DNA from: Burkholderia sp.
Lineage (GTDB): Bacteria; Pseudomonadota; Gammaproteobacteria; Burkholderiales; Burkholderiaceae
Assembly: GCA_028292565.1 (NCBI GenBank)
Contig: JAQGMD010000107.1
Span: 1-17,461 of the forward strand
Reading direction: 5' to 3'
Length of the DNA stretch: 17,461 nucleotides
In this document: positions 2,265 through 15,749 of the stretch, piece by piece
How positions within the stretch are numbered: the first letter of the stretch is position 1
Layout: each line of letters begins with the position of its first letter
Notes under the pieces: model-generated
What the model saw: the letters and a program-made list of their open reading frames with translations, nothing else
Told to the model about the DNA's origin: nothing
Database searches by the model: none
Made by a program: the position numbers and the translations under genes

Positions 2265-3137
2265 ATGAGTTGGCTTGAAAAGCTGCTCCCACCGCGCATA
2301 CAGCGTTCCGATTCGGCAACCCGCAAGTCGGTGCCGGAAGGGTTGTGGGTGAAATGTCCGTCGTGCGAAGCAGTGCTCTATCGCACCGACCTGGAATCTA
2401 ACATCCACGTTTGCCCGAAATGCAACCATCACATGCGCATCCGCGCCCGTGACCGCCTCGACGCATTGCTCGATGCGGGTGGCCGTTATGAAATCGGCCA
2501 GGAAGCGCTGCCGGTGGATACGCTGAAATTCAAGGACAGCAAGAAGTACCCGGACCGCCTGAAAGACGCGCTTGACGCGACCGGCGAAACCGACGCGCTG
2601 ATCGTGCTGGGCGGTTCCATCATGACATTGCCGGTGGTGGTCGCCTGTTTTGAATTTGAATTCATGGGCGGCTCGATGGGTTCCGTGGTCGGCGAGCGCT
2701 TTGCGCGCGGCGCCCAGATCGCACTGGAGCAGAAGGTCCCGTTCATCTGCATCACCGCGACCGGCGGCGCCCGCATGCAGGAAGGCCTGTTGTCCCTGAT
2801 GCAAATGGCGAAGACCACTTCCATGCTGACCAAGCTGTCGGAGAAGAAGCTGCCGTTCATTTCGGTGCTGACCGATCCCACCATGGGCGGCGTGTCGGCC
2901 TCGTTTGCCTTCATGGGCGATGTCGTGATTGCCGAGCCGAAGGCGTTGATCGGTTTCGCCGGCCCACGCGTGATCGAAAACACGGTGCGCGAAAAATTGC
3001 CGGAAGGCTTCCAGCGCGCCGAGTTCCTTGTGCAAAAAGGTGCGGTCGACATGATCGTGGATCGCCGCAAGATGCGTGAGGAAATCGCCCGGTTGTTGGC
3101 GCTGCTGCAGAATCAGCCTGCTGAAGTAATCGCTTAA
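2265..3137 (+). CDS. accD: Acetyl-CoA carboxylase carboxyltransferase subunit beta
   Basis: AccD is the beta subunit of the carboxyltransferase half of acetyl-CoA carboxylase. With AccA it moves CO2 from carboxybiotin on AccB to acetyl-CoA, giving malonyl-CoA for fatty acid synthesis. The 290-residue protein has the diagnostic N-terminal four-cysteine zinc ribbon (Cys31, Cys34, Cys50, Cys53), followed by the crotonase-like carboxyltransferase core with [11 protein letters not shown] and the GGVSASFA segment. The ATG at 2265 is chosen over an in-frame start at 2208 because it has a good ribosome binding site (GAGG at 2255-2258) and matches the family N-terminus [11 protein letters not shown] strong terminator follows at 3156-3185, so accD may be a single-gene transcription unit. 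Confidence 0.98.
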
Positions 3138-5986: not shown

Positions 5987-7504
5987 ATGTGTGGCATTGT
6001 TGGCGTCGTCTCTCACGGTCCCGTTAATCAGCTCATTTATGACGCGTTGCTGTTGTTGCAGCATCGCGGCCAGGATGCTGCGGGCATCGCAACCACTCAT
6101 GGCAATATGTTTTCCATGCATAAGGCCAATGGCCTGGTGCGTGATGTGTTCCGCACGCGCAATATGCGCTCGTTGCCCGGCAATGCCGGCATCGGTCAGG
6201 TGCGCTATCCGACCGCCGGCTCGGCCAGCGCGGAGGAGGCGCAACCGTTTTATGTGAACGCACCGTTCGGCATCATCCTTGCGCACAACGGCAATCTCAC
6301 CAACTGGGAACAACTCAAGATCGAGATGTTCCAGAACGATCGCCGCCACATCAATACCGATTCCGATTCCGAGGTGCTGTTGAACGTGCTGGCCCATGAA
6401 ATCCAGGAGTCGACTTCGGGTTATTCGCTCGATCCGGCGGCCTTGTTCAAGGCGGTGACGGTATTGCACAAACGGGTACGCGGCTCGTATGCGGTCGTTG
6501 CGCAAATCGCCGGACATGGCTTGCTGGCTTTCCGGGATCCCTACGGCATCCGGCCGCTGTGCATCGGCTTCAATGACACGGAAAACGGCCCGGAGTATAT
6601 GCTGGCCAGCGAGTCGGTTGCGCTGGAAGGCCTCGGCTTCCGGTTCCTGCGTGATGTGATGCCGGGTGAGGCGATCTTCATTGACCTCGAAGGCAATCTC
6701 TACAACCAGCAGTGCGCGGAAAATCCCCAGCTCAGCCCATGCGCATTCGAATTCGTCTACCTTGCTCGCCCTGATTCCGTCATCGACGGCGCCTCGGTTT
6801 ACCAGACGCGCCTGAAGATGGGTGAATACCTCGCCGACAAGATCAAGAGCCAGATGTCCGCCGGTGAAATCGACGTGGTGATGCCCATCCCCGACTCGTC
6901 CCGTCCGGCTGCGATGGAACTCGCGCTCAAGTTGAACCTGCAGTACCGCGAAGGTTTCATCAAGAATCGCTATATCGGCCGCACCTTCATCATGCCGGGC
7001 CAGGGGATGCGCAGGAAATCCGTGCGCCAGAAGCTGAACGCGATCGGCTCCGAATTCAAAGGCAAGAACGTATTGCTGGTCGATGATTCCATCGTGCGCG
7101 GCACGACTAGCCGTGAGATCGTACAGATGGCGCGTGAAGCTGGCGCCAAGAGCGTGATCTTCGCGTCGGCCGCGCCGCCGGTGAAATTTCCGAACGTGTA
7201 CGGCATCGATATGCCGACGCGTAACGAGTTGATCGCCTATGGCCGCACCGACGAAGAAGTGTGTCGCGAGATCACCGCGGATGCGCTGGTGTACCAGGAC
7301 ATCGAAGCGCTCAAGCGCTCCATCTCCGATGCGAATCCGCTGCTGAAGAGCTTCGAGGCGTCTTGCTTCGATGGCGTCTACGTAACCGGCGACATTTCGC
7401 GCGATTACCTGGATCGCATCGAGATCGCGCGCAATAACCCGAAGCCCGAAAACGAAGATGCAGTGCGTTCGCAGTTGAACCTCGGCTTAGCCCAGGTCGA
7501 TTGA
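5987..7504 (+). CDS. purF: Amidophosphoribosyltransferase
   Basis: PurF catalyses the first committed step of purine synthesis, making 5-phosphoribosylamine from PRPP and glutamine. The 505-residue length equals that of the E. coli enzyme. The N-terminal Ntn glutaminase domain begins MCGIVGVV, so Cys2 becomes the N-terminal nucleophile after Met removal; LQHRGQDAAGIA and the AHNGNLTN motif are also visible. The C-terminal phosphoribosyltransferase domain has the PRPP-binding loop LLVDDSIVRGTTS, with the two aspartates at 366-367. A ribosome binding site (GAGGAG, 5974-5979) precedes the ATG. A strong terminator follows 18 bases after the stop codon. I see no PurR-type operator here. Confidence 0.98.
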   Translation: MCGIVGVVSHGPVNQLIYDALLLLQHRGQDAAGIATTHGNMFSMHKANGLVRDVFRTRNMRSLPGNAGIGQVRYPTAGSASAEEAQPFYVNAPFGIILAHNGNLTNWEQLKIEMFQNDRRHINTDSDSEVLLNVLAHEIQESTSGYSLDPAALFKAVTVLHKRVRGSYAVVAQIAGHGLLAFRDPYGIRPLCIGFNDTENGPEYMLASESVALEGLGFRFLRDVMPGEAIFIDLEGNLYNQQCAENPQLSPCAFEFVYLARPDSVIDGASVYQTRLKMGEYLADKIKSQMSAGEIDVVMPIPDSSRPAAMELALKLNLQYREGFIKNRYIGRTFIMPGQGMRRKSVRQKLNAIGSEFKGKNVLLVDDSIVRGTTSREIVQMAREAGAKSVIFASAAPPVKFPNVYGIDMPTRNELIAYGRTDEEVCREITADALVYQDIEALKRSISDANPLLKSFEASCFDGVYVTGDISRDYLDRIEIARNNPKPENEDAVRSQLNLGLAQVD

Positions 7505-7522
7505 TCAGGGGCCCTCGATCGC

Positions 7523-7560
7523 AGCCCGTTTGCCGGTTCCGCCGGCAAACGGGCTTTTTA
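7523..7560 (+). terminator. Intrinsic terminator of purF
   Basis: A perfect 14-bp stem (7523-7536 with 7542-7555) closes a 5-base loop TTCCG and is followed by TTTTT (7555-7559). The 14-base string AAACGGGCTTTTTA at 7547-7560 recurs exactly at 7718-7731 in the terminator before the next gene. Confidence 0.96.
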
Positions 7561-7573
7561 ATGGCCGGTAATT

Positions 7574-7601
7574 TTGCGATCGCTTGTTTTTACGATACGA
7601 T
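7574..7601 (+). promoter_or_regulatory. Candidate sigma70 promoter of the SAM-II riboswitch leader
   Basis: TTGCGA (7574-7579), a 16-base spacer and TACGAT (7596-7601) predict transcription starting near 7607-7608. That is immediately before the P1 stem of the aptamer, as expected if the leader RNA is the riboswitch alone. The assignment is by pattern and position only. Confidence 0.5.
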
Positions 7602-7605
7602 GAGA

Positions 7606-7683
7606 CCTGCGCCGATTTGAACTGCTTGCGGGCGCGGGAGGCTCTTGCAAATGTGCGATCCCAATAAATGCTGCTAAACGGGG
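7606..7683 (+). ncRNA. SAM-II (SAM_alpha) riboswitch aptamer
   Basis: The order and spacing of conserved blocks match the SAM-II aptamer. P1 is GCGCC/GGCGC (7609-7613 with 7631-7635) and can extend three more pairs to 7606/7638. Inside P1 lies GATTTGAAC (7614-7622), then TTGC (7626-7629). After P1 come AATAAATGC (7663-7671) and GCTAAA (7673-7678). TTGC can pair with GC(U)AA at 7673-7677, leaving U7675 unpaired, and G7624-C7679 and C7622-G7681 extend the helix. This reproduces the H-type pseudoknot that binds S-adenosylmethionine. Between P1 and the 3' block there is an extra segment (7636-7662) with GGGA/TCCC ends, consistent with the variable insertion some members carry. The gene downstream is a methionine-pathway enzyme, the usual SAM-II target. 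SAM-V is a related alternative but is less likely in this lineage. Confidence 0.85.
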
Positions 7684-7697
7684 ATGCCATCTTTTAT

Positions 7698-7731
7698 AGC
7701 CCGTTTCAGCTCACGCTAAACGGGCTTTTTA
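7698..7731 (+). terminator. Riboswitch expression-platform terminator
   Basis: AGCCCGTTT-C-AGC (7698-7710) pairs with GCT-AAACGGGCT (7715-7726) around a TCAC loop, 12 bp with one bulged C, followed by TTTTT (7726-7730). It ends seven bases before the ATG of the downstream gene. Its 5' arm (7700-7710) can alternatively pair with the aptamer 3' end GCTAAACGGG (7673-7682), 10 bp with the same bulge. The terminator and antiterminator are therefore mutually exclusive. The predicted logic is OFF when SAM is bound. Confidence 0.88.
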
Positions 7732-7737
7732 TTGACC

Positions 7738-8982
7738 ATGACAGATACCACGAAAAAATACGGCTTCACCACCACCATTTTGCATAGCGACCGGCAAAAG
7801 CCGATCGAGCATGGTTCTTTGCACAAGCCGATCCACACTTCCGTCACCTTCGGTTATGAAGACTCGCGCGAACTGGCTGCTGTATTCCAGGGCAAGAAGC
7901 CGGGCTATCGATATGGGCGTCAGGGTAATCCGACGGTTTCCGCGCTGGAAGACAAAGTCACGCAAATGGAGCAGGGCATCGCGACGATCTGTTTCGCGAC
8001 TGGCATGGCGGCAATCGGCGCTGTGGTGCAAGCGCTATTGCGTCAGGGTGATCACATCGTATCCTCGTCCTTTCTGTTCGGGAATACCAACAGCCTCTGG
8101 CAAACGGTGGCCGGGCAGGGAACTGATGTGTCGTTTGTCGATGCGACTGACGTCAGCAACGTCGAGGCTGCGTTGACGCCGGCCACCCGCATGGTGTTTG
8201 TTGAAACCATAGCCAATCCACGGACGCAAGTCGCGGATCTGAAACGCATCGGCCAGTTGTGCCGCGATCGCGGCATACTCTATGTCGTCGACAACACCAT
8301 GACCTCGCCATACCTATTCCAGCCGAAAGCGGTAGGTGCCAGCCTCGTGATCAATGCGCTGACCAAGTCGATCGGCGGGCATGGCAACGCATTGGGCGGC
8401 AGCCTGACGGATACCGGCCTCTACGACTGGACGAAATACCAGAACATCGTCGACAGCTACAAACGTTATGCGCCGGCACAATGGGGCATGGCACAGATCC
8501 GCGCCAAAGCGCTGCGTGACTTCGGCGGCACGCTCGGTCCCGAGGCGGCACACCATCTGGCGGTCGGAGCAGAAACAATGGCGCTGCGCCTGGAGCGCGA
8601 GTGTGCAAATGCGCTGGCGGTGGCAAAGATGCTCGAAGCCGATGAACGGGTGGCGGCCGTCTACTATCCAGGTTTGCCGTCCCACCCGCAGCACGCGATA
8701 TCTACTGAGCTGTTCCGCTCTTACGGCAGCCTGTTCAGCTTTGAACTGAAAGAGGGCATCGACTGTTTTGACTACCTGAACCGCCTGAAGCTCGGCGTGC
8801 CGGCCAGTAACCTGGGCGATACCCGCACCCTCGTCATTCCGGTCGCGCACACCATCTTCTTTGAAATGGGGCCTGAACGCAGAGCCAGCATGGGTATTGC
8901 GGAATCGTTGATCAGGGTGTCGGTTGGTATTGAAGATACGGCCGACCTGGTCGATGACTTCCACCAGGCTTTGGATTCCTAG
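7738..8982 (+). CDS. Cystathionine gamma-synthase family PLP enzyme (probable O-acylhomoserine sulfhydrylase)
   Basis: This is a 414-residue member of the Cys/Met metabolism PLP-enzyme family. Visible are YRYGRQGNPT near residue 60, CFATGMAAI (PLP phosphate contact region), VVDNTMTSPYLFQP with the cofactor-binding Asp, and the PLP lysine Lys210 in ALTKSIGGHG. The C-terminal NLGDTRTLVIPVAHT and RVSVGIEDTADLVDDF segments are also typical. The place after purF and the SAM-II riboswitch in front argue for methionine biosynthesis, most likely sulfhydrylation of O-succinyl- or O-acetylhomoserine (the MetZ/MetY role). Sequence alone does not exclude cystathionine gamma-synthase or a gamma-lyase, so no symbol is given. 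ATG 7738 is preferred over TTG 7732 because it matches the family start MTDT. The site lacks a clear ribosome binding site except GGG at 7722-7724, which lies inside the terminator stem. Confidence 0.93.
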   Translation: MTDTTKKYGFTTTILHSDRQKPIEHGSLHKPIHTSVTFGYEDSRELAAVFQGKKPGYRYGRQGNPTVSALEDKVTQMEQGIATICFATGMAAIGAVVQALLRQGDHIVSSSFLFGNTNSLWQTVAGQGTDVSFVDATDVSNVEAALTPATRMVFVETIANPRTQVADLKRIGQLCRDRGILYVVDNTMTSPYLFQPKAVGASLVINALTKSIGGHGNALGGSLTDTGLYDWTKYQNIVDSYKRYAPAQWGMAQIRAKALRDFGGTLGPEAAHHLAVGAETMALRLERECANALAVAKMLEADERVAAVYYPGLPSHPQHAISTELFRSYGSLFSFELKEGIDCFDYLNRLKLGVPASNLGDTRTLVIPVAHTIFFEMGPERRASMGIAESLIRVSVGIEDTADLVDDFHQALDS

Positions 8983-9008: not shown

Positions 9009-9054
9009 GGTGCGCGCCCCGCGCACCATGCCCTTCGGGTCCGCATGGCGCGCG
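9009..9054. repeat. REP-like palindromic element
   Basis: Two overlapping hairpins lie 26 bases after the stop codon. GGTGCGC (9009-9015) pairs with GCGCACC (9021-9027) around GCCCC. Alternatively CGCGC-A-CCATGC (9020-9031) pairs with GCATGG-C-GCGCG (9043-9054) with one mismatch, capped by a CTTCGG tetraloop (9033-9038). The GTAGGGTGCGC start resembles short dispersed palindromes common in proteobacterial intergenic regions. Only one copy is in the window, so a dispersed repeat cannot be proven here. It could also serve as a 3' end for the upstream transcript, although there is no T run. Confidence 0.5.
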
Positions 9055-9073
9055 AATTTCCTAACAAAAACAA

Positions 9074-9100
9074 TTCACTATAGGAAATTGTGGATACAAT
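9074..9100 (+). promoter_or_regulatory. Candidate promoter of the MSHA pilus operon
   Basis: TACAAT at 9095-9100 is a good -10 box. TTCACT at 9074-9079 is a 4/6 match to -35 with a short 15-base spacer. The predicted start is near 9107, about 26 bases before the mshE ATG. The surrounding AT-rich stretch (9056-9100) contrasts with the GC-rich flanks. Confidence 0.4.
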
Positions 9101-9132
9101 ACGCGCGTGAATTACCGTGGCGAGGAGCGCGT

Positions 9133-10836
9133 ATGCCGAGGCCGGAAAAAGTCCGCTTGGGAGAAATTCTGGTTCAGCAAAGGTTGCTCTCCGACGAGCA
9201 GCTACAGTTTTCCCTCGCCGAACAGAAAAGAACCGGGCGCAAGCTCGGTCGGGTGTTTGTCGAAAACGGCTTCGTCACCGAAGAAGAAATCTCAGGCGCG
9301 CTCGCCAAGCAATTCAATATCCCGTACGTCAATCTCAAGTTCTACAACGTCGATCCGGCGGTAGTGCGCCTGCTGCCCGAGACCCAGGCACGCCGCTTCC
9401 GCGCGATTGTGCTGGAAGATCGCGGCAAGTCGCTATTGATGGGCCTGGCTGACCCCACGGACCTGTTTGCGTACGACGAAATTGCACGGGTGGTGAAGAG
9501 AAACATCGAGCTTGCAGTGGTCAATGAGAGCGAGCTGCTGCACACCATCGACCGCATTTATCGCCGTACCGAAGAAATCACCGACTTTGCCCGTGAGCTT
9601 CAGCAGGACCTGGGCGACACCTACGTCGATTTCGGCGCTCTGGGCGGCACGCCCGGCATTGAAGAAGCCCCGGTCGTCAAACTGCTGCAATCAGTGTTCG
9701 ACGACGCTACCCAGGTGATGGCATCCGATATTCATATCGAGCCGCAGGAGGGGCGTCTCCAGATCCGCTTCCGCATCGACGGCATGCTGCATTTGCAAAC
9801 CGAGGCGGATATCCGGATTGCCCCGGCACTGGCCCTTCGCCTCAAGCTGATGTCCGGCCTCGATATTTCTGAAAAACGCCTGCCGCAAGACGGCCGTTTC
9901 GCCATCAAGGTGAAACAGCAACAAGTAGACGTTCGTATTTCGACGATGCCGACGCAGCACGGCGAATCCGTCGCGATGCGCCTGTTGAACCAGAGCGGCG
10001 GCACACTCAACCTCGATTCGATCGGCATGCCGGTCGACATGCTTGCCAGGCTCCGGGAGCTTTTGCAGCGTGCGCACGGCCTGATCCTGGTGACGGGCCC
10101 GACCGGAAGCGGCAAGACCACCACGCTGTACGGGGCGCTCGCCGAGCTCAATACCATGTCGCGCAAGCTGATCACCGTGGAAGACCCGGTGGAATATCGG
10201 CTGAGTGGCATCAACCAGGTACAGGTCAATGAAAAGATCGACTTGTCCTTCGCCCGCGTATTGCGCTCCGCATTACGTCAGGACCCCGACGTGGTGCTCG
10301 TCGGTGAGATACGTGACGAGGAAACCGCGCAGATCAGCATGCGGGCCGCACTGACGGGTCACCTGGTGCTCTCTACCCTGCATACCAACGATGCGGTCAG
10401 TACGCCGATCCGTTTGCTCGATATGGGCGTACCCCGCTATATGGTCGCGACCTCTCTGCACGCGGTGGTCGCTCAGCGGCTGGTCCGGATTGTTTGCGAG
10501 AGCTGCGCCGACAGCTATGATCCCAAACCCACTGAACTAGCGTGGCTGAAGGCGGAGCTAGGTGAGACCGTATCCGAACACCGCTACTTTCATGGGCGTG
10601 GCTGCTCGCATTGCAACGGCACCGGCTATCGCGGACGTACCGGTGCTTATGAGATGCTCGAGATAACGGAATCCGTGGCAGACGCAGCAAGCCAGGACGA
10701 TCACACGCAATTCATGAAAGTCGCCCAGGCGCAGATGGCAGGGCGTACTTTGCGCCGGCATGCAGTGAGTCTGGTCGTTGCTGGCAGGACGACCATCAGC
10801 GAAGCAATGCGTGTCAGCAACCAATTTGAGGAGTAG
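9133..10836 (+). CDS. mshE: MSHA-type pilus assembly ATPase MshE (GspE/PilB family)
   Basis: This 567-residue cytoplasmic hexameric ATPase powers polymerisation of the pilus. At the N-terminus are two tandem 24-residue MshEN motifs, Arg8-Gln31 and Lys37-Gln60, each with the R/K-L-G start, a hydrophobic residue and a Leu at motif positions 17 and 21, and the closing Gln that binds cyclic di-GMP. The GspE core follows: Walker A GPTGSGKTT with Lys328, Walker B region ending at Glu392 in VLVGEIRDEE, and the His box LTGHLVLSTLHTNDA. A zinc tetracysteine motif is present (Cys455, Cys458, Cys491, Cys494). The ATG at 9133 is preferred to an in-frame start at 9010 because GAGGAG (9122-9127) lies six bases upstream and the longer form would translate the REP-like element. 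mshG follows after 8 bases. Confidence 0.95.
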   Translation: MPRPEKVRLGEILVQQRLLSDEQLQFSLAEQKRTGRKLGRVFVENGFVTEEEISGALAKQFNIPYVNLKFYNVDPAVVRLLPETQARRFRAIVLEDRGKSLLMGLADPTDLFAYDEIARVVKRNIELAVVNESELLHTIDRIYRRTEEITDFARELQQDLGDTYVDFGALGGTPGIEEAPVVKLLQSVFDDATQVMASDIHIEPQEGRLQIRFRIDGMLHLQTEADIRIAPALALRLKLMSGLDISEKRLPQDGRFAIKVKQQQVDVRISTMPTQHGESVAMRLLNQSGGTLNLDSIGMPVDMLARLRELLQRAHGLILVTGPTGSGKTTTLYGALAELNTMSRKLITVEDPVEYRLSGINQVQVNEKIDLSFARVLRSALRQDPDVVLVGEIRDEETAQISMRAALTGHLVLSTLHTNDAVSTPIRLLDMGVPRYMVATSLHAVVAQRLVRIVCESCADSYDPKPTELAWLKAELGETVSEHRYFHGRGCSHCNGTGYRGRTGAYEMLEITESVADAASQDDHTQFMKVAQAQMAGRTLRRHAVSLVVAGRTTISEAMRVSNQFEE

Positions 10837-10844
10837 GACCGAGC

Positions 10845-12074
10845 GTGCCGTTCTATGCGTATAAAGCCCGCAATGCGCGTGGCGAGCTGCTGAAGGGCGT
10901 GATTGAAAGCGCCGATAGCGACTCTGTCGCCGATCAGCTCTTCAACACGGGCGTCACGCCTGTCGAAATTGTGGCGACCCGAAAACCCGGGACGAACGGC
11001 TCGCAGGGTTGGTGGGCTACCCTGTTCGAGCAAAAGGTGGGGCCGCTCGATGTGCAGTTATTCAGCCGGCAGCTGCATACGTTGTTGAAGGCGGGTGTGC
11101 CGATCATGCGCAGCCTGGCAGGCTTGCAGGAGTCCGCAATCAACAAATCGTTTGGCCGGGTGATCCAGGACTTGCGCGAGTCACTGGACGCGGGACGCGA
11201 ACTTTCGGCTGCGATGCGCAGGCATCCACAGGTATTTTCCCCGTTCTATCTCAGCATGGTGCGCGTAGGCGAAATGACCGGCCGCCTCGATGAAGTATTC
11301 CTGCGCCTGTTCGACTATCTCGAATTCGATCGCGACATGCAGCAGCGTGTTCGCTCGGCGTTGCGATATCCGATGTTCGTCGTCATCGTCATGGTTATCG
11401 CCATCGCGATCATCAATCTGTTCGTGATTCCGTCATTTGCCAAGGTCTACGCGAGCTTCCATGCCGAGCTGCCTTTGATGACCAAGGTCCTGATCGCGAG
11501 CTCGAACTTCACGGTGCAGTTCTGGCCGTTTATCCTGGCAGCCGTTGCGTCAGCGGTTCTGGCCTTCAGGACGTGGATTGCTACCCCATTTGGCCGCTAT
11601 CGCTGGGACATGGTGAAGTTACGCTTTCCGATTGCCGGCAAAATTTTGCTCAAGGGAGCGCTCGCCCGCTTCGCGCGTTGCTTCGCCTTATCCGCCAAGA
11701 GCGGCGTCCCGATTGTGCAGGCACTAAATGTAGTCGCGCAGACGGTAGACAACGCCTACATTGCGAGCCGCATCGAGCAGATGCGCGACGGAGTGGAACG
11801 TGGTGACAGCATTTTGCGTACGGCTGCAACGACGGGTGTTTTCACTCCGGTCGTGCTGCAAATGGTGGCAGTCGGCGAAGAAACCGGTGAAATGGATAGT
11901 TTGATGGACGAGATCGCGCAGATGTACGAGGGCGAGATCGATTACCAGTTGAAGTCGCTTTCGGCGCAGATTGAGCCGATTTTAATTGTCGGTCTCGGCG
12001 TTCTGGTCCTGATGCTTGCGCTCGGCGTATTTTTGCCTGTGTGGGATCTTGGGAAGGCTGCGTTGCAAAAATGA
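10845..12074 (+). CDS. mshG: MSHA-type pilus inner-membrane platform protein MshG (GspF/PilC family)
   Basis: MshG is the polytopic inner-membrane platform that couples the ATPase to the pilin subunits. The 409-residue protein starts with GTG and reads MPFYAYKARNARGELLKG, the classic GspF N-terminus. It carries two GspF cytoplasmic domains (about 50-175 and 255-375), the first with FSRQLHTLLKAGVPI and the second with FARCFALSAKSGVPI. Three transmembrane helices are predicted at about 177-198, 225-245 and 377-400. Length and layout fit the family. It ends in an ATGA overlap with the next pilin gene, which indicates translational coupling. Confidence 0.95.
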   Translation: MPFYAYKARNARGELLKGVIESADSDSVADQLFNTGVTPVEIVATRKPGTNGSQGWWATLFEQKVGPLDVQLFSRQLHTLLKAGVPIMRSLAGLQESAINKSFGRVIQDLRESLDAGRELSAAMRRHPQVFSPFYLSMVRVGEMTGRLDEVFLRLFDYLEFDRDMQQRVRSALRYPMFVVIVMVIAIAIINLFVIPSFAKVYASFHAELPLMTKVLIASSNFTVQFWPFILAAVASAVLAFRTWIATPFGRYRWDMVKLRFPIAGKILLKGALARFARCFALSAKSGVPIVQALNVVAQTVDNAYIASRIEQMRDGVERGDSILRTAATTGVFTPVVLQMVAVGEETGEMDSLMDEIAQMYEGEIDYQLKSLSAQIEPILIVGLGVLVLMLALGVFLPVWDLGKAALQK

Positions 12075-12613
12075 CCGCGCGCGTCTATCCGTTTGATTTC
12101 AGAAAAGCAGGGCACGCCGGCTTCACGCTGATTGAACTCATTGTGGTCATTTCCATCGTGGCCGTTGCTGCCGGCGTACTTCTCGAGCGCGTGCTCGTCT
12201 ATCGGGAGCAAGCGGAAAAGGCTGCAATGGAGCACACCGTCGGCGCCTTGCGTAGCGCTTTGCACCTGGAATTCGCGTCTCTTATTGCGAAAAATAGGGC
12301 GCACGAGTTGCCAAAATTGCTAGAACAGAACCCGATGGACTGGCTTGCGCAGAAACCTGCGAACTATGTTGGTGAGTACTTTGCGCCAAAACCACAGGAT
12401 ATAACAAAAGGCAGTTGGTATTTTGACTTACGGAAACGAAACCTAATATACTCCGTGCAAACCAAGACTCACTTCAAAAATACTCAAGGTGAGCAGGACT
12501 TGATCGGTTTCCAGGTCAGGTTGGTCACTAGGAAACAAGGTGAACAGGGCCAGTCCGCTACCGATATTGAAGGCGTCGTTCTGGATCCGGTTTTCTCTTA
12601 TACGTGGTTCTGA
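12071..12613 (+). CDS. Prepilin-like minor pilin (MSHA locus, mshB position)
   Basis: This is a 180-residue pseudopilin or minor pilin. A 17-residue leader ends in Gly17, and the mature protein would start FTLIELIVVISIV with Glu22 as the conserved +5 glutamate, so a PilD-type prepilin peptidase should cleave and methylate it. The rest is an N-terminal helix and a globular domain without any cysteine, so no disulfide D-loop. ATG 12071 overlaps the mshG stop codon (ATGA) and is preferred to GTG 12041, which would give a needlessly long leader. The segment around 12360-12500 is visibly more AT-rich than its neighbours. Position suggests the MshB slot, but the similarity is too general to assign the symbol. 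Confidence 0.88.
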   Translation: MTARVYPFDFRKAGHAGFTLIELIVVISIVAVAAGVLLERVLVYREQAEKAAMEHTVGALRSALHLEFASLIAKNRAHELPKLLEQNPMDWLAQKPANYVGEYFAPKPQDITKGSWYFDLRKRNLIYSVQTKTHFKNTQGEQDLIGFQVRLVTRKQGEQGQSATDIEGVVLDPVFSYTWF

Positions 12614-12637
12614 TTCCGGAACTACAATTTTTATAAT
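12608..12637 (+). promoter_or_regulatory. Candidate promoter of the major pilin gene
   Basis: A perfect TATAAT lies at 12632-12637, 18 bases before the pilin ATG. The best -35 candidate, TTCTGA at 12608-12613 with an 18-base spacer, is weak (3/6) and partly overlaps the end of the upstream gene. A separate promoter would fit the need for abundant major pilin. I see no sigma54 -24/-12 motif. Confidence 0.4.
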
Positions 12638-12655
12638 ACGTTCGGGAGGCACTAA

Positions 12656-13132
12656 ATGGGCAGCACGCAATATAAGAAGAGTCAGTCAGGCTTCACCCTG
12701 GTTGAGTTAATCGTAGTGATTGCAATTCTGGGTATTCTGGCAGCGACTGCAATTCCGCGTTTTACTGGAATGTCGGCTGATGCCCGCTTCGCAGCTTCCA
12801 AGGGATTGCAGGCGGCAGTTCAATCGGCTGCTTCGATTGCGCATGCACAGGCGTTGGTTCAAAACCAGGCAGGCGCATCCGGATCGATCACCATGGAGGG
12901 CCTGGCCGTCGCATTGGTCAATGGTTATCCCGCTACTGCAACCGGAGGAATTGATAACGCATTGGCCTCATTTCAAGGCTTCACTTTTGCCGCCGGGGTT
13001 TTCAGTCAGACTAGCGCCACTGTGCCGGCCAACTGCGGTGTGACGTATGCCCAACCGGCTGCCCTCAACGGTGCGCCGACAATCAGCTTAGGTGCGACCG
13101 ATTCAACAAACTACACGACAAGATGTAATTAA
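12656..13132 (+). CDS. mshA: MSHA-like major pilin
   Basis: This 158-residue type IV pilin is the likely fibre subunit. Its 12-residue leader ends in Gly12, and the mature chain begins FTLVELIVVIAILGILAATAIPRF with Glu17 at +5. The small Ala/Gly/Thr-rich C-terminal domain has a cysteine pair, Cys127 and Cys157, that could form the D-loop disulfide. A very good ribosome binding site (GGGAGG, 12644-12649, six bases from the ATG), a TATAAT box upstream and an intrinsic terminator downstream single it out as the highly expressed gene of the locus. The mshA assignment rests on these expression signals, size and position after mshE and mshG. It does not come from a database match. Confidence 0.87.
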   Translation: MGSTQYKKSQSGFTLVELIVVIAILGILAATAIPRFTGMSADARFAASKGLQAAVQSAASIAHAQALVQNQAGASGSITMEGLAVALVNGYPATATGGIDNALASFQGFTFAAGVFSQTSATVPANCGVTYAQPAALNGAPTISLGATDSTNYTTRCN

Positions 13133-13153
13133 GGAACGGTGGCTCGGTCCGAC

Positions 13154-13187
13154 AAGGCCCGGCTTGGAAACAAGTCAGGGCCTTTTT
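13154..13187 (+). terminator. Intrinsic terminator behind the major pilin gene
   Basis: AAGGCCCGGCTTG (13154-13166) pairs with CAAGTC-A-GGGCCTT (13171-13184) around a GAAA tetraloop, 13 pairs with one bulged A and one G-U. TTTTT follows (13183-13187). It lies 21 bases after the mshA stop codon. Genes of the same locus continue downstream, so it probably attenuates transcription and does not end the operon completely. Confidence 0.88.
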
Positions 13188-13303
13188 ACTTGGACGGTTC
13201 TGTCGCTCCCTATCTGCTCATGGGTAGTCAGTTGACCGGCCCGGTTTCGAATCGTCTGATGCGCGTCTTTTGCGTTGACACAAAAAGCCACGAAAGAAAT
13301 GGC

Positions 13304-13840
13304 ATGTCCCGGAAAGCTGAGGCAGGATTCACCCTGACGGAATTGGTCGTGCTACTCGTAATCATGGGCATCCTGGCTGCGGTCGCGATTCCACGCTTCT
13401 TTGATCGTGAAACGTTCGATGCTCGGGGTTTTTCGGACCAGGCACGGTCCATGATCCGCTATGCACAAAAGGTGGCAATCGCTCAAAACCGTAATGTGCA
13501 TGTTCGCCTGAACGGTGTCAGTCTGGCATTCTGCTTTGCTCCATTTGCGGCGGATGGTTCTTGTGCCAGTCAGGTATCCGCACCGGCCGGAACGAACAGT
13601 GGCAGCGCGGCGACGCTGGCTGCATGCGGTAACAGCTCCGCATGGTTTTGTGAAGCGGTTCCTGCGGGGATCGCCTATGCCGCAACTCCGCTATTCTTTT
13701 TCAACGCTTCAGGCAAGCCGTTTCATGCCGGCGATGTCGTCCCGGACTCTACGTTTGCGGGACTCGACATGGTACTCACGGGCGGGGGCGTGATCCATCA
13801 CGTCGTTATTGAAAGGGAGACGGGTTATGTACACCCGTAA
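13304..13840 (+). CDS. mshC: Prepilin-like minor pilin (MshC-like, GspH/FimT type)
   Basis: This is a 178-residue minor pilin. The 8-residue leader MSRKAEAG precedes FTLTELVVLLVIMGILAAVAIPRF with the +5 glutamate at residue 13. After the helix comes a GspH/FimT-like region (SDQARSMIRYAQKVAIAQNRNVHVRLNG), typical of tip-complex pseudopilins that prime fibre assembly. Four cysteines lie in the globular part. ATG 13304 is preferred because it gives a normal short leader. An in-frame ATG at 13259 or GTG at 13139 would give leaders of 23 or more residues, and the latter reads through the terminator hairpin. The ribosome binding site is weak (AAAGAA). The end overlaps the next gene by 14 bases. Confidence 0.85.
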   Translation: MSRKAEAGFTLTELVVLLVIMGILAAVAIPRFFDRETFDARGFSDQARSMIRYAQKVAIAQNRNVHVRLNGVSLAFCFAPFAADGSCASQVSAPAGTNSGSAATLAACGNSSAWFCEAVPAGIAYAATPLFFFNASGKPFHAGDVVPDSTFAGLDMVLTGGGVIHHVVIERETGYVHP

Positions 13841-14414
13841 CCGTCGAAAGTGCGGACGGCGCGAGGGTGGACTTACGCTGGTTGAATTGGTGCTGTTCAT
13901 TTTGATCGTTAGCCTTGCCGTTGCGGGAGTGATGCAGGTGTTGACCTATACAGCCCGGCATAGCGCTGACCCGCAAATGCGCAAACAGGCACTGGCACTG
14001 GCCGAGGCGCTGCTCGAGGAGGTTCAGGCCATGCCTTTCACCGACTGCGATCCGGAGGCGTTTGATCTGGAAACCGATAATTGCGCGTTGGCCGAAGCGC
14101 CGGGCGCGGAAGCAGCCGGTGCCGGGCAACCACAGCCCGAGGTTCGTGGCGCGTCCGATGCGCCATTCGATAACGTGAATGATTACGCCGGATTCACTCT
14201 CGCAGCTGGCGGTACCGACATGTCGGGAACTGTTATGGCACCAGCCGGTTATTCCGCGGCAGTCACAATCACCGAGGAGGGCGGCTTCGGCCCGGCAGGC
14301 GCGCAGCCTCCGCAGGCGGATGTGCTGCGGATCATGGTGACCGTCAACTATGGTAGCGACAGCCTCGTACTGGAAGGTTATCGGACGAAATATGCACCGA
14401 CCGCGTACCCGTAA
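13827..14414 (+). CDS. mshD: Prepilin-like minor pilin (MshD-like, PilV type)
   Basis: This is a 195-residue minor pilin with the basic leader MYTRNRRKCGRREGG and mature start LTLVELVLFILIVSLAVAGVMQVL. The +1 residue is Leu where Phe is usual, and the +5 glutamate is Glu20. The following KQALALAEALLEEVQAMPF stretch is the usual MshD/PilV helix continuation. The C-terminal part holds the acidic, Ala/Gly-rich segment around residues 85-125. A ribosome binding site (GGGAGA, 13815-13820) supports ATG 13827 over the TTG at 13809. It overlaps the upstream pilin gene by 14 bases. Symbol by position and family resemblance. Confidence 0.82.
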   Translation: MYTRNRRKCGRREGGLTLVELVLFILIVSLAVAGVMQVLTYTARHSADPQMRKQALALAEALLEEVQAMPFTDCDPEAFDLETDNCALAEAPGAEAAGAGQPQPEVRGASDAPFDNVNDYAGFTLAAGGTDMSGTVMAPAGYSAAVTITEEGGFGPAGAQPPQADVLRIMVTVNYGSDSLVLEGYRTKYAPTAYP

Positions 14415-15294
14415 AATGCCGAAAACAATGACGGGGAGCCAGCGAGGCTTTACGCTCGCCGAGGCGGTCATTGTGATCGCGATTACCGGCATCGTCGCGG
14501 CGACGGTAGCCATCTTTATTCGTCTCCCGGTCCAGGGCTACCTCGACAGCACAGCGCGAGCGGAATTGACAGACACCGCGGATACGGCGCTGCGCCGCAT
14601 CTCACGCGATATACGGCTTGCCGTGCCCAACAGCGTCCGCGTGAGCAGTGCCGGTGGCGTTGATTATATTGAATTCCTGCTTGCAAATACCGGCGGACGC
14701 TACCTTGCGGAAGAAGACAATCCTACAGACCCGGTCGCGAGGCCTTTTCTCAGTTTCGATAATCCTGCGCAGACCAGCTTTACGGTTGTTGGCGGTTTGG
14801 CCGCGGGAGCGCAAGAGATCGCTGTAGGTAACCGCATTGTGGTCTACAACCTGGGATCTGGCCAGGCGCCGGCTGATGCGTATGTGGGGGGGAATATCGC
14901 TACGGTCAGCGCGGTCGATACCGGCAATAGCAGAATCACGCTGGCCAGTAACCCCTTTGCCGCGCAGGTGCCAGTCATGTCTTCGCCCGCCCGGCGTTTC
15001 GATGTGGTCCAGACACCGGTGACCTACGCTTGCAATCCCGCCGCCGGCACCCTGACGAGATACTGGGGTTATCCGATCAGTGCCGCTCAACCGATTAACG
15101 CTGCGACCGCGCCTTTGTCGAACGGTCAAAACGCACTATTGGCGCGGGGAGTGGTTGGTTGTACGTTCGCTTACAGTAATCCCGGCAATTTTCGCAGTGG
15201 GTTGGTTGGACTGCAGCTGGCTATGCAGACGCCGGGGAGCGCAAGTGGCACAGTCGTTCTGTTCCACCAGGTCCATGTCAAGAACACGCCATGA
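14392..15294 (+). CDS. mshO: Prepilin-like minor pilin (MshO-like, PulJ/GspJ type)
   Basis: This is a large minor pilin of about 300 residues, the size expected for MshO. Its mature start FTLAEAVIVIAITGIVAATVAIF keeps the +5 glutamate and is followed by ELTDTADTALRRISRDIRLAVPNSV, the GspJ/PilW-like amphipathic helix. Two cysteines lie in the C-terminal third (YACNPAAG and VGCTFAYS). The start is uncertain. ATG 14392 overlaps the mshD end and has GGA six bases upstream; ATG 14416, one base after the mshD stop, gives an 11-residue leader. The 3' end forms an ATGA overlap with the next gene. Confidence 0.84.
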   Translation: MHRPRTRKMPKTMTGSQRGFTLAEAVIVIAITGIVAATVAIFIRLPVQGYLDSTARAELTDTADTALRRISRDIRLAVPNSVRVSSAGGVDYIEFLLANTGGRYLAEEDNPTDPVARPFLSFDNPAQTSFTVVGGLAAGAQEIAVGNRIVVYNLGSGQAPADAYVGGNIATVSAVDTGNSRITLASNPFAAQVPVMSSPARRFDVVQTPVTYACNPAAGTLTRYWGYPISAAQPINAATAPLSNGQNALLARGVVGCTFAYSNPGNFRSGLVGLQLAMQTPGSASGTVVLFHQVHVKNTP

Positions 15295-15749
15295 AAATGA
15301 ACCAGAATCCGAGCCGCAGGCTGCGACGGGAGAAGGGCTTCACCATGGTGAGCGCGATATTCCTTTTGGTCGTCTTAGCCGGGTTGGGCGTCGCCATCGC
15401 CAATATTTCGGTCATGCAGAACACCAGCTCATCCTTGGATCTTCAGGGCACGCGCGCGTACCAGGCGGCGCGTGCAGGCATCGAATGGGGGCTACACCGC
15501 GAACTGGTTGCAGCACCAGGCTCATGCGCCGGAACGACATCTTCGTTTGTGCTGCCGGCGCCGTCACTCAATGCATTCACGGTAACCGTCACTTGTAACT
15601 CCACAGTCTTTGCCGATGCCGATCCGACTATTATCGTTCGGCGTATGCGTGCGGTAGCTTGCAACCAGCCGACCGCAGGCAGTTGTGTCGCCGGTACGGG
15701 TCAGAACAATCCGAATTTTGTGCAGCGGGATCTACAGGTGACATTTTGA
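15291..15749 (+). CDS. mshP: MshP-like pilus biogenesis protein (PilX type)
   Basis: This 152-residue protein has a basic N-terminus (PSRRLRREKG) and a single N-terminal hydrophobic helix, FTMVSAIFLLVVLAGLGVAIA. The Gly-Phe cleavage context is present, but the +5 position is Ser, not Glu, as in PilX/GspK-like proteins that sit at fibre tips. Four cysteines in the C-terminal half could make two disulfides. The segment LDLQGTRAYQAARAGIEWGL is the family hallmark following the helix. The gene is coupled by ATGA overlap to mshO and by a TGATG overlap to the next gene. Confidence 0.83.
   Translation: MKMNQNPSRRLRREKGFTMVSAIFLLVVLAGLGVAIANISVMQNTSSSLDLQGTRAYQAARAGIEWGLHRELVAAPGSCAGTTSSFVLPAPSLNAFTVTVTCNSTVFADADPTIIVRRMRAVACNQPTAGSCVAGTGQNNPNFVQRDLQVTF

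Follow-up and report, generated by a model that had tools for sequence, protein, structure and literature searches.

In the window, by which we mean the whole 17,461-nt stretch of DNA analyzed here, trpB, trpA, folC and purF are followed by a noncoding element and then by a gene for a PLP enzyme; between the first four lie genes that, from their translations, we take to be accD, a SPOR protein gene and cvpA. The locus raises the question of what this element is and how it might act on the gene behind it. The PLP enzyme's nearest kin among the best 80 of 503 loci belong to Noviherbaspirillum and other Oxalobacteraceae (at most 87% identity), so the window is betaproteobacterial. A preliminary description had predicted a SAM-II riboswitch 5′ of a methionine-type gene in a betaproteobacterium, and four lines of evidence now support this prediction: the pocket residues, a bridging model, the genes behind the element and a terminator; the computation also shows conservation of the element and competing pairings. 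In our reading, positions 7609–7730 are very probably a SAM-II (SAM_alpha) riboswitch with a transcription-terminating platform and with predicted binding of SAM.

Building blocks and predicted ligand pocket

Direct reading of the window bore out the sequence blocks, their order and their coordinates as first described (Table 1). The P1 stem-loop, the A-rich strand and the 3′ strand follow one another in the order expected of SAM-II, the linker being enlarged by the insert. SAM-II has 13 fully conserved residues, U10–12, U20, U21, G22, C23, G42, C43, U44 and A45–47, of which U11 and U21 sense the positive sulfur, U44 the adenine and A47 the methionine part (PMC3764141; this and the other papers cited by PMC number are represented here by excerpts). 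All 13 are found in the window, at 7616–7618, 7626–7629 and 7673–7678. UUGC and GCUAAA occur in 98 of 98 leaders (87 model matches, the window and 10 loci), U10–U12 in 95–96 and G8 in 93, the leaders having been chosen by a model that favors such letters.

The preliminary description had also noted complementarity in the pseudoknot. This stands for the letters of the window, where C7622–G7681 and G7624–C7679 can pair with U7623–G7680 between them, but it does not extend to the family. When P2a strands were swapped between loci, no covariation was detected over 28 distinct strand combinations (mean of 2.04 contiguous pairs versus 2.27 after the swap), and 476 of 500 swaps were at least as good as the leaders' own strands. 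P1 hardly varies and P2b is invariant, so both are uninformative on covariation.

Table 1. Coordinates of the element and of the features around it in the window.
Feature	Position	Strand	Remarks
Upstream purF terminator hairpin	7523–7555	+	15 pairs, then a T-run; divides purF from the proposed riboswitch
Putative promoter	7574–7601	+	TTGCGA 7574–7579, 16 nt, TACGAT 7596–7601; a few nt 5′ of P1
P1 stem-loop	7609–7635	+	GCGCC 7609–7613 / GGCGC 7631–7635; R2 28.6 bits, RF00521 11.1 bits
Loop L1 within P1	UUU 7616–7618, UUGC 7626–7629 (TTGC in DNA)	+	
Block GATTTGAAC	7614–7622	+	Direct reading
27-nt insert	7636–7662	+	Closing GGGA/UCCC possible; proposed optional hairpin of the extended subtype
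A-rich strand AATAAATGC (L3)	7663–7671	+	Direct reading; conserved in alignments A1 and A3
Predicted pseudoknot P2, 3′ strand	7673–7682	+	GCUAAA 7673–7678 plus CGGG; would double as antiterminator strand
Intrinsic terminator	7698–7730	+	Hairpin 7698–7726, T-run 7726–7730
PLP gene under proposed control	7738–8982	+	ATG at 7738; TTG at 7732 as alternative start

The TACGAT of the putative promoter lies directly 5′ of P1 in 11 of the 12 window-type leaders defined below. A promoter scan of the window did not list the putative promoter at 7574–7601. Its sole listing, TTGACC/AAAAAT at 7732–7759, falls within the gene start and was set aside.

Link to SAM-II through relatives

At the gathering score, no Rfam family matched in the window. 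In a permissive search of 7490–7780, RF00521 (SAM_alpha) matched 7609–7635 with 11.1 bits (E 5) against a gathering cut-off of 36, which is an operational threshold and no structural feature; a significant direct match to RF00521, put forward earlier as a check on the call, was therefore not obtained. Since the direct score lies below the cut-off, the SAM-II membership of the window rests on its relatives. The same search gave matches to RybB, CyaR, anti-hemB, toxic sRNA and snoR77, all under cut-off and several overlying terminator hairpins; these were rejected.

Whole loci of relatives of the PLP enzyme were pattern-searched, and 11 of the best 80 of 503 loci carry the element 5′ of the PLP gene (L001, L002, L003, L006, L007, L009, L010, L018, L023, L035 and L063). 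L076 also gave a pattern match, which lies elsewhere in the locus, in the opposite orientation, and looks like chance; it was discarded. In the 12 leaders made up of the window and these 11, GCGCCGATTT, TTGCGGGCGC and GCTAAA are conserved, and the insert differs from leader to leader in both length and sequence. Model R1 was built from the 12 leaders. For the bridging model, R2, we used 17 of the 18 places that RF00521 itself accepts over its cut-off (the eighteenth was left out); the sequences were trimmed to the limits of R1, and their acceptance is Rfam's. In the window alone, R2 matched 7609–7636 (28.6 bits, E 1.4e-8) and, a second time, 7641–7684 (10.9 bits, E 0.021), which are the two halves of the element parted by the insert. 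It detected all 12 window-type leaders at E ≤ 1.8e-5 and gave no match at E ≤ 0.1 in 11 loci without the element, E-values of both R1 and R2 being rough.

Distribution in the order

Of 300 genomes from the order, 197 contained an R1 match at E ≤ 0.01; because R1 finds the family so widely and R2 finds the window, the motif is beyond chance. In a smaller draw of 100 genomes, R1 matched 62, often with 2–4 copies and at most 4 per genome. RF00521 alone matched 56 genomes of this draw at E ≤ 0.1, 16 of them over cut-off. Weak matches that stay under cut-off also turn up at E 0.1 in 2 of 14 control genomes, so the weakest RF00521 rows may be chance. The places found by RF00521 in the draw coincided with R1 matches in 18 of 18 cases over cut-off, in 55 of 57 at E ≤ 0.001 and in 65 of 80 overall.

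Among 22 genomes reached via named loci, 18 have a match to the element and four do not (Rugamonas fusca, Massilia polaris, Telluria antibiotica and Duganella rivi). In the genome of Noviherbaspirillum aerium (G001), copies lie 5′ of the orthologue of the window gene (L127), of metH (L128) and of metX (L188). The suggestion that a betaproteobacterial copy bears on the spread of SAM-II does not hold as a point of novelty: apart from the 16 of 100 genomes of the order in which RF00521 exceeds its cut-off, SAM-II is described as commonest in Alpha-, Beta- and Gammaproteobacteria (PMC2704228) and is mentioned for alpha- and beta-Proteobacteria (PMC2258182).

Compact and hairpin-inserted forms

From the 109 R1 matches listed, we took the 87 with E ≤ 1e-5. 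RF00521 lists 63 of these as well; they represent a compact form of 58–64 nt. The 24 that it leaves unlisted comprise 22 long copies of 70–104 nt and two of 58 and 61 nt. In 20 of the 22 long copies, the linker from P1 to GCUAA is 26–51 nt long, versus 12 in most compact copies; the other two have a long L1 in its place. Run at E ≤ 0.1 on 100 genomes, where filters at such a search size drop some weak matches, RF00521 listed none of the 20 strong long-linker R1 matches.

The 27-base insertion of the window had been thought to be a possible extra hairpin. Folding of 31 inserts (from the 20 long-linker copies, the window and another 10 leaders, some closely related) favors this for the family, with a mean z of −2.15 versus mononucleotide shuffles and 26 of 31 below −1. 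For the window taken singly the indication is faint: its insert has z −0.78 against mononucleotide and −1.27 against dinucleotide shuffles, 24 of 200 of the latter being as good, and in the fold of the window's leader GGG 7636–7638 lengthens P1 instead. We propose that the insert would be an optional hairpin lying outside the ligand pocket, which would leave SAM binding undisturbed.

Downstream genes

The gene behind the element was expected to encode a methionine-type enzyme, and this is supported. It scores 732.6 bits against NF004609, "cystathionine gamma-synthase family protein" (cut-off 555), so NCBIfam places it in that family. The narrower assignment to a strict O-succinylhomoserine sulfhydrylase is rejected by the NCBIfam cut-off (NF006003, 304.7 bits, cut-off 522).

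For the 87 matches, the downstream ORF was picked mechanically as the longest group starting within 500 nt; one match (L189) lies at a contig end and yielded no ORF, which leaves 86. Domain searches found a Cys/Met PLP domain in 34, an alpha/beta hydrolase in 21 and a homocysteine methyltransferase in 14. By blastp against four references, 69 of the 86 were assigned: 31 sulfhydrylase-type PLP enzymes, 3 window-type PLP enzymes, 21 MetX and 14 MetH. Because the choice was mechanical, wrong picks and tandem loci are among the 17 ORFs that lack a methionine-gene match.

3′ of the PLP gene, the window holds a run of genes for type II secretion or a type IV pilus (9010–15749). Its first, 9010–10836, is a GspE/PilB-type ATPase that stays under the equivalog cut-offs and has an MshE-type c-di-GMP motif over cut-off; ORFs later in the run have prepilin-like starts, as judged by eye.

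Terminator and proposed switch

The terminator of the window folds with −17.3 kcal/mol (z −5.88), and none of 200 shuffles is as good; a simple terminator scan did not list 7698–7730. Among the relatives, 85 of 87 have a terminator 3′ of the element; the corresponding figures are 8 of 87 for shuffled tails and 6 of 87 for the antisense reading. An antiterminator fold is also available in the window (−13.6 kcal/mol, a value equalled or bettered by 3 of 200 shuffles). The sequence GCUAAACGGG occurs twice, at 7673–7682 and, as the 3′ arm of the terminator, at 7715–7724, and both copies are thus able to pair with the 5′ arm 7700–7710. The nascent leader up to 7712 folds as antiterminator, and this fold vanishes once 7673–7681 are kept unpaired. 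In the full-length leader without SAM the terminator is favored by energy, so the choice between OFF and ON has to be made kinetically.

We asked if this competition is a property of the family. Pairing between aptamer strand and terminator arm reaches −9.0 kcal/mol or better in each of the 12 window-type leaders. Across the 96 model-selected leaders with a terminator, a leader's own arm gives −7.53 compared with −6.80 (sd 0.13) for swapped arms, none of 50 swaps being as good, and a complement of GCUAAA is present in 23 terminator arms versus 0.82 expected. Taken singly, only 34 of the 96 leaders beat shuffled arms at p 0.05 (mean z −1.3); the aptamer-strand antiterminator is therefore not established for every member, and others may switch differently.

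We infer SAM binding and the switch itself. In the absence of SAM, the 3′ strand of the aptamer (7670–7673 and 7676–7682) would pair with the terminator 5′ arm 7700–7710, and with this antiterminator formed the polymerase would continue into the PLP enzyme gene. In the presence of SAM, the pseudoknot of UUGC 7626–7629 and GCUAAA 7673–7678 would close round the ligand; the 3′ strand would then be held in the pseudoknot, the terminator 7698–7730 could form and the gene would be off.

Alternative identities and earlier records

The element shares with the SAM-II/SAM_alpha riboswitch (RF00521; the metA element of PMC1273637) P1, the UUGC and GCUAAA strands, the A-rich strand, the pocket residues, methionine genes and a terminator downstream. 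It differs from RF00521 in the 27-nt insert that separates P1 from the A-rich strand, in a different and shorter P2a strand and in its score (11.1 versus 36). The SAM-II riboswitch of metZ in Sinorhizobium meliloti likewise lies 5′ of metZ and has a predicted SAM-dependent terminator, but it is alphaproteobacterial and was studied in vivo (PMC9373788).

A rival reading is a SAM-II fold that senses a different ligand, or SAH in addition to SAM, its specificity altered by the inserted hairpin or the short P2a. The window's P2a strand departs from the RF00521 consensus and lacks pairing support in the family, and the extended subtype is invisible to RF00521. Yet U11, U21, U44 and A47, with the roles given in PMC3764141, are all kept and the target genes serve methionine synthesis, and we regard a changed ligand as very unlikely. 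The element could also belong to SAM-V, which the preliminary description had named for a model search, or to some further SAM class. This would account for the low direct SAM-II score, and SAM-V has its core in common with SAM-II. However, a search of 7490–7780 with all Rfam families gave no SAM-V match at E ≤ 10, and compact relatives of the element pass RF00521, which makes this class assignment extremely unlikely.

The remaining alternative comes from Rfam itself. RF02424 (Bp2_287, "Burkholderia sRNA") matched the minus strand at 7576–7730 in the permissive search (33.3 bits, E 5.2e-6), and the conserved stretch could accordingly be a small RNA gene on that strand; RT-PCR support has been reported (PMC3521395). 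Bp2_Cand287 adjoins purF, metZ and metX (Figure 6A legend, PMC3521395), and thus shares place and neighbors with the element, but Rfam models it in the reverse orientation and classes it as an sRNA gene. The RF02424 score is under its cut-off of 70, and at E 1 the model also matches 6 of 14 control genomes. In 5 of 7 loci that it matches (L095, L097, L098, L099 and L115), RF00521 matches the same place on the opposite strand. Its consensus opens with an A-run that precedes a hairpin, which is how a terminator reads in complement, and the 2012 authors themselves propose a cis-acting element in methionine metabolism (PMC3521395). We reject the minus-strand gene because the orientation of the terminators (85 of 87 in the sense reading against 6 of 87 in antisense) favors the plus strand, and we hold it to be highly improbable. 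RF02424 looks like a wrong-strand model of the riboswitch.

A second earlier record is the metXZ element of 2014, reported from 35 beta-proteobacterial genomes with a pseudoknot, a terminator and one copy per genome; the published alignment has six conserved regions (Figure S2), and SAM_alpha is reported there only in Rhizobiales and Rhodobacterales (PMC4239095). Bacterial group, the genes metX and metZ and the downstream terminator are the same as here, and a pseudoknot is predicted here too. The excerpted text names no ligand, and the single copy per genome differs from the 2–4 that R1 often finds. Compared by text description, the element in the window is probably this metXZ element. A literature search on SAM-II in betaproteobacteria/Burkholderiales, metXZ and Bp2_Cand287, covering excerpts of part of the papers listed, mainly openly available ones, found no paper tying metXZ or Bp2_287 to SAM-II.

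A probable wider regulon and tandem copies

A SAM-II riboswitch in the window fits a broader picture, which we consider likely: a wide SAM-II regulon in the order, comprising metX, metH and Cys/Met PLP genes, in which some copies, overlooked by RF00521, have an extra hairpin inserted 3′ of P1, ahead of the A-rich strand. This would supply the ligand of metXZ and make RF02424 a wrong-strand model, and the hairpin may tune folding speed and thus the SAM threshold of termination. If so, SAM becomes a testable ligand for the metXZ candidate element, the strand and class of RF02424 are corrected, and RF00521 misses long-linker copies systematically. What is new here is the proposed hairpin-inserted SAM-II form overlooked by Rfam's model; SAM-II in beta-Proteobacteria and tandem SAM-II were already known.

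In eight loci selected for visual inspection (L106, L134, L159, L173, L184, L196, L200 and L205), we noticed tandem pairs of SAM-II-like elements. In most, the first element has a terminator and the second lies directly 5′ of the start codon. They resemble the 44 published examples of tandem SAM-II, some of which combine a terminator with subsequent control at the ribosome site (PMC9481103), and we do not count them as novel; the window itself has a single copy.

Five tandem loci contain an ORF of ~95–118 aa whose first part has the letters MFDC or MYDC; behind it lies a MATE transporter gene, a candidate for a SAM-controlled transporter (L205:407–2081 (+), L184:3–1719 (−), L173:3–1703 (−), L200:403–2079 (+) and L196:403–2077 (+)). 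The small ORF had no Pfam match in the three loci tested (L184, L200 and L205). In a further locus, L115, an SAH riboswitch (2794–2871 (+), 59.9 bits, cut-off 37) lies ~1.2 kb 3′ of the SAM-II element.
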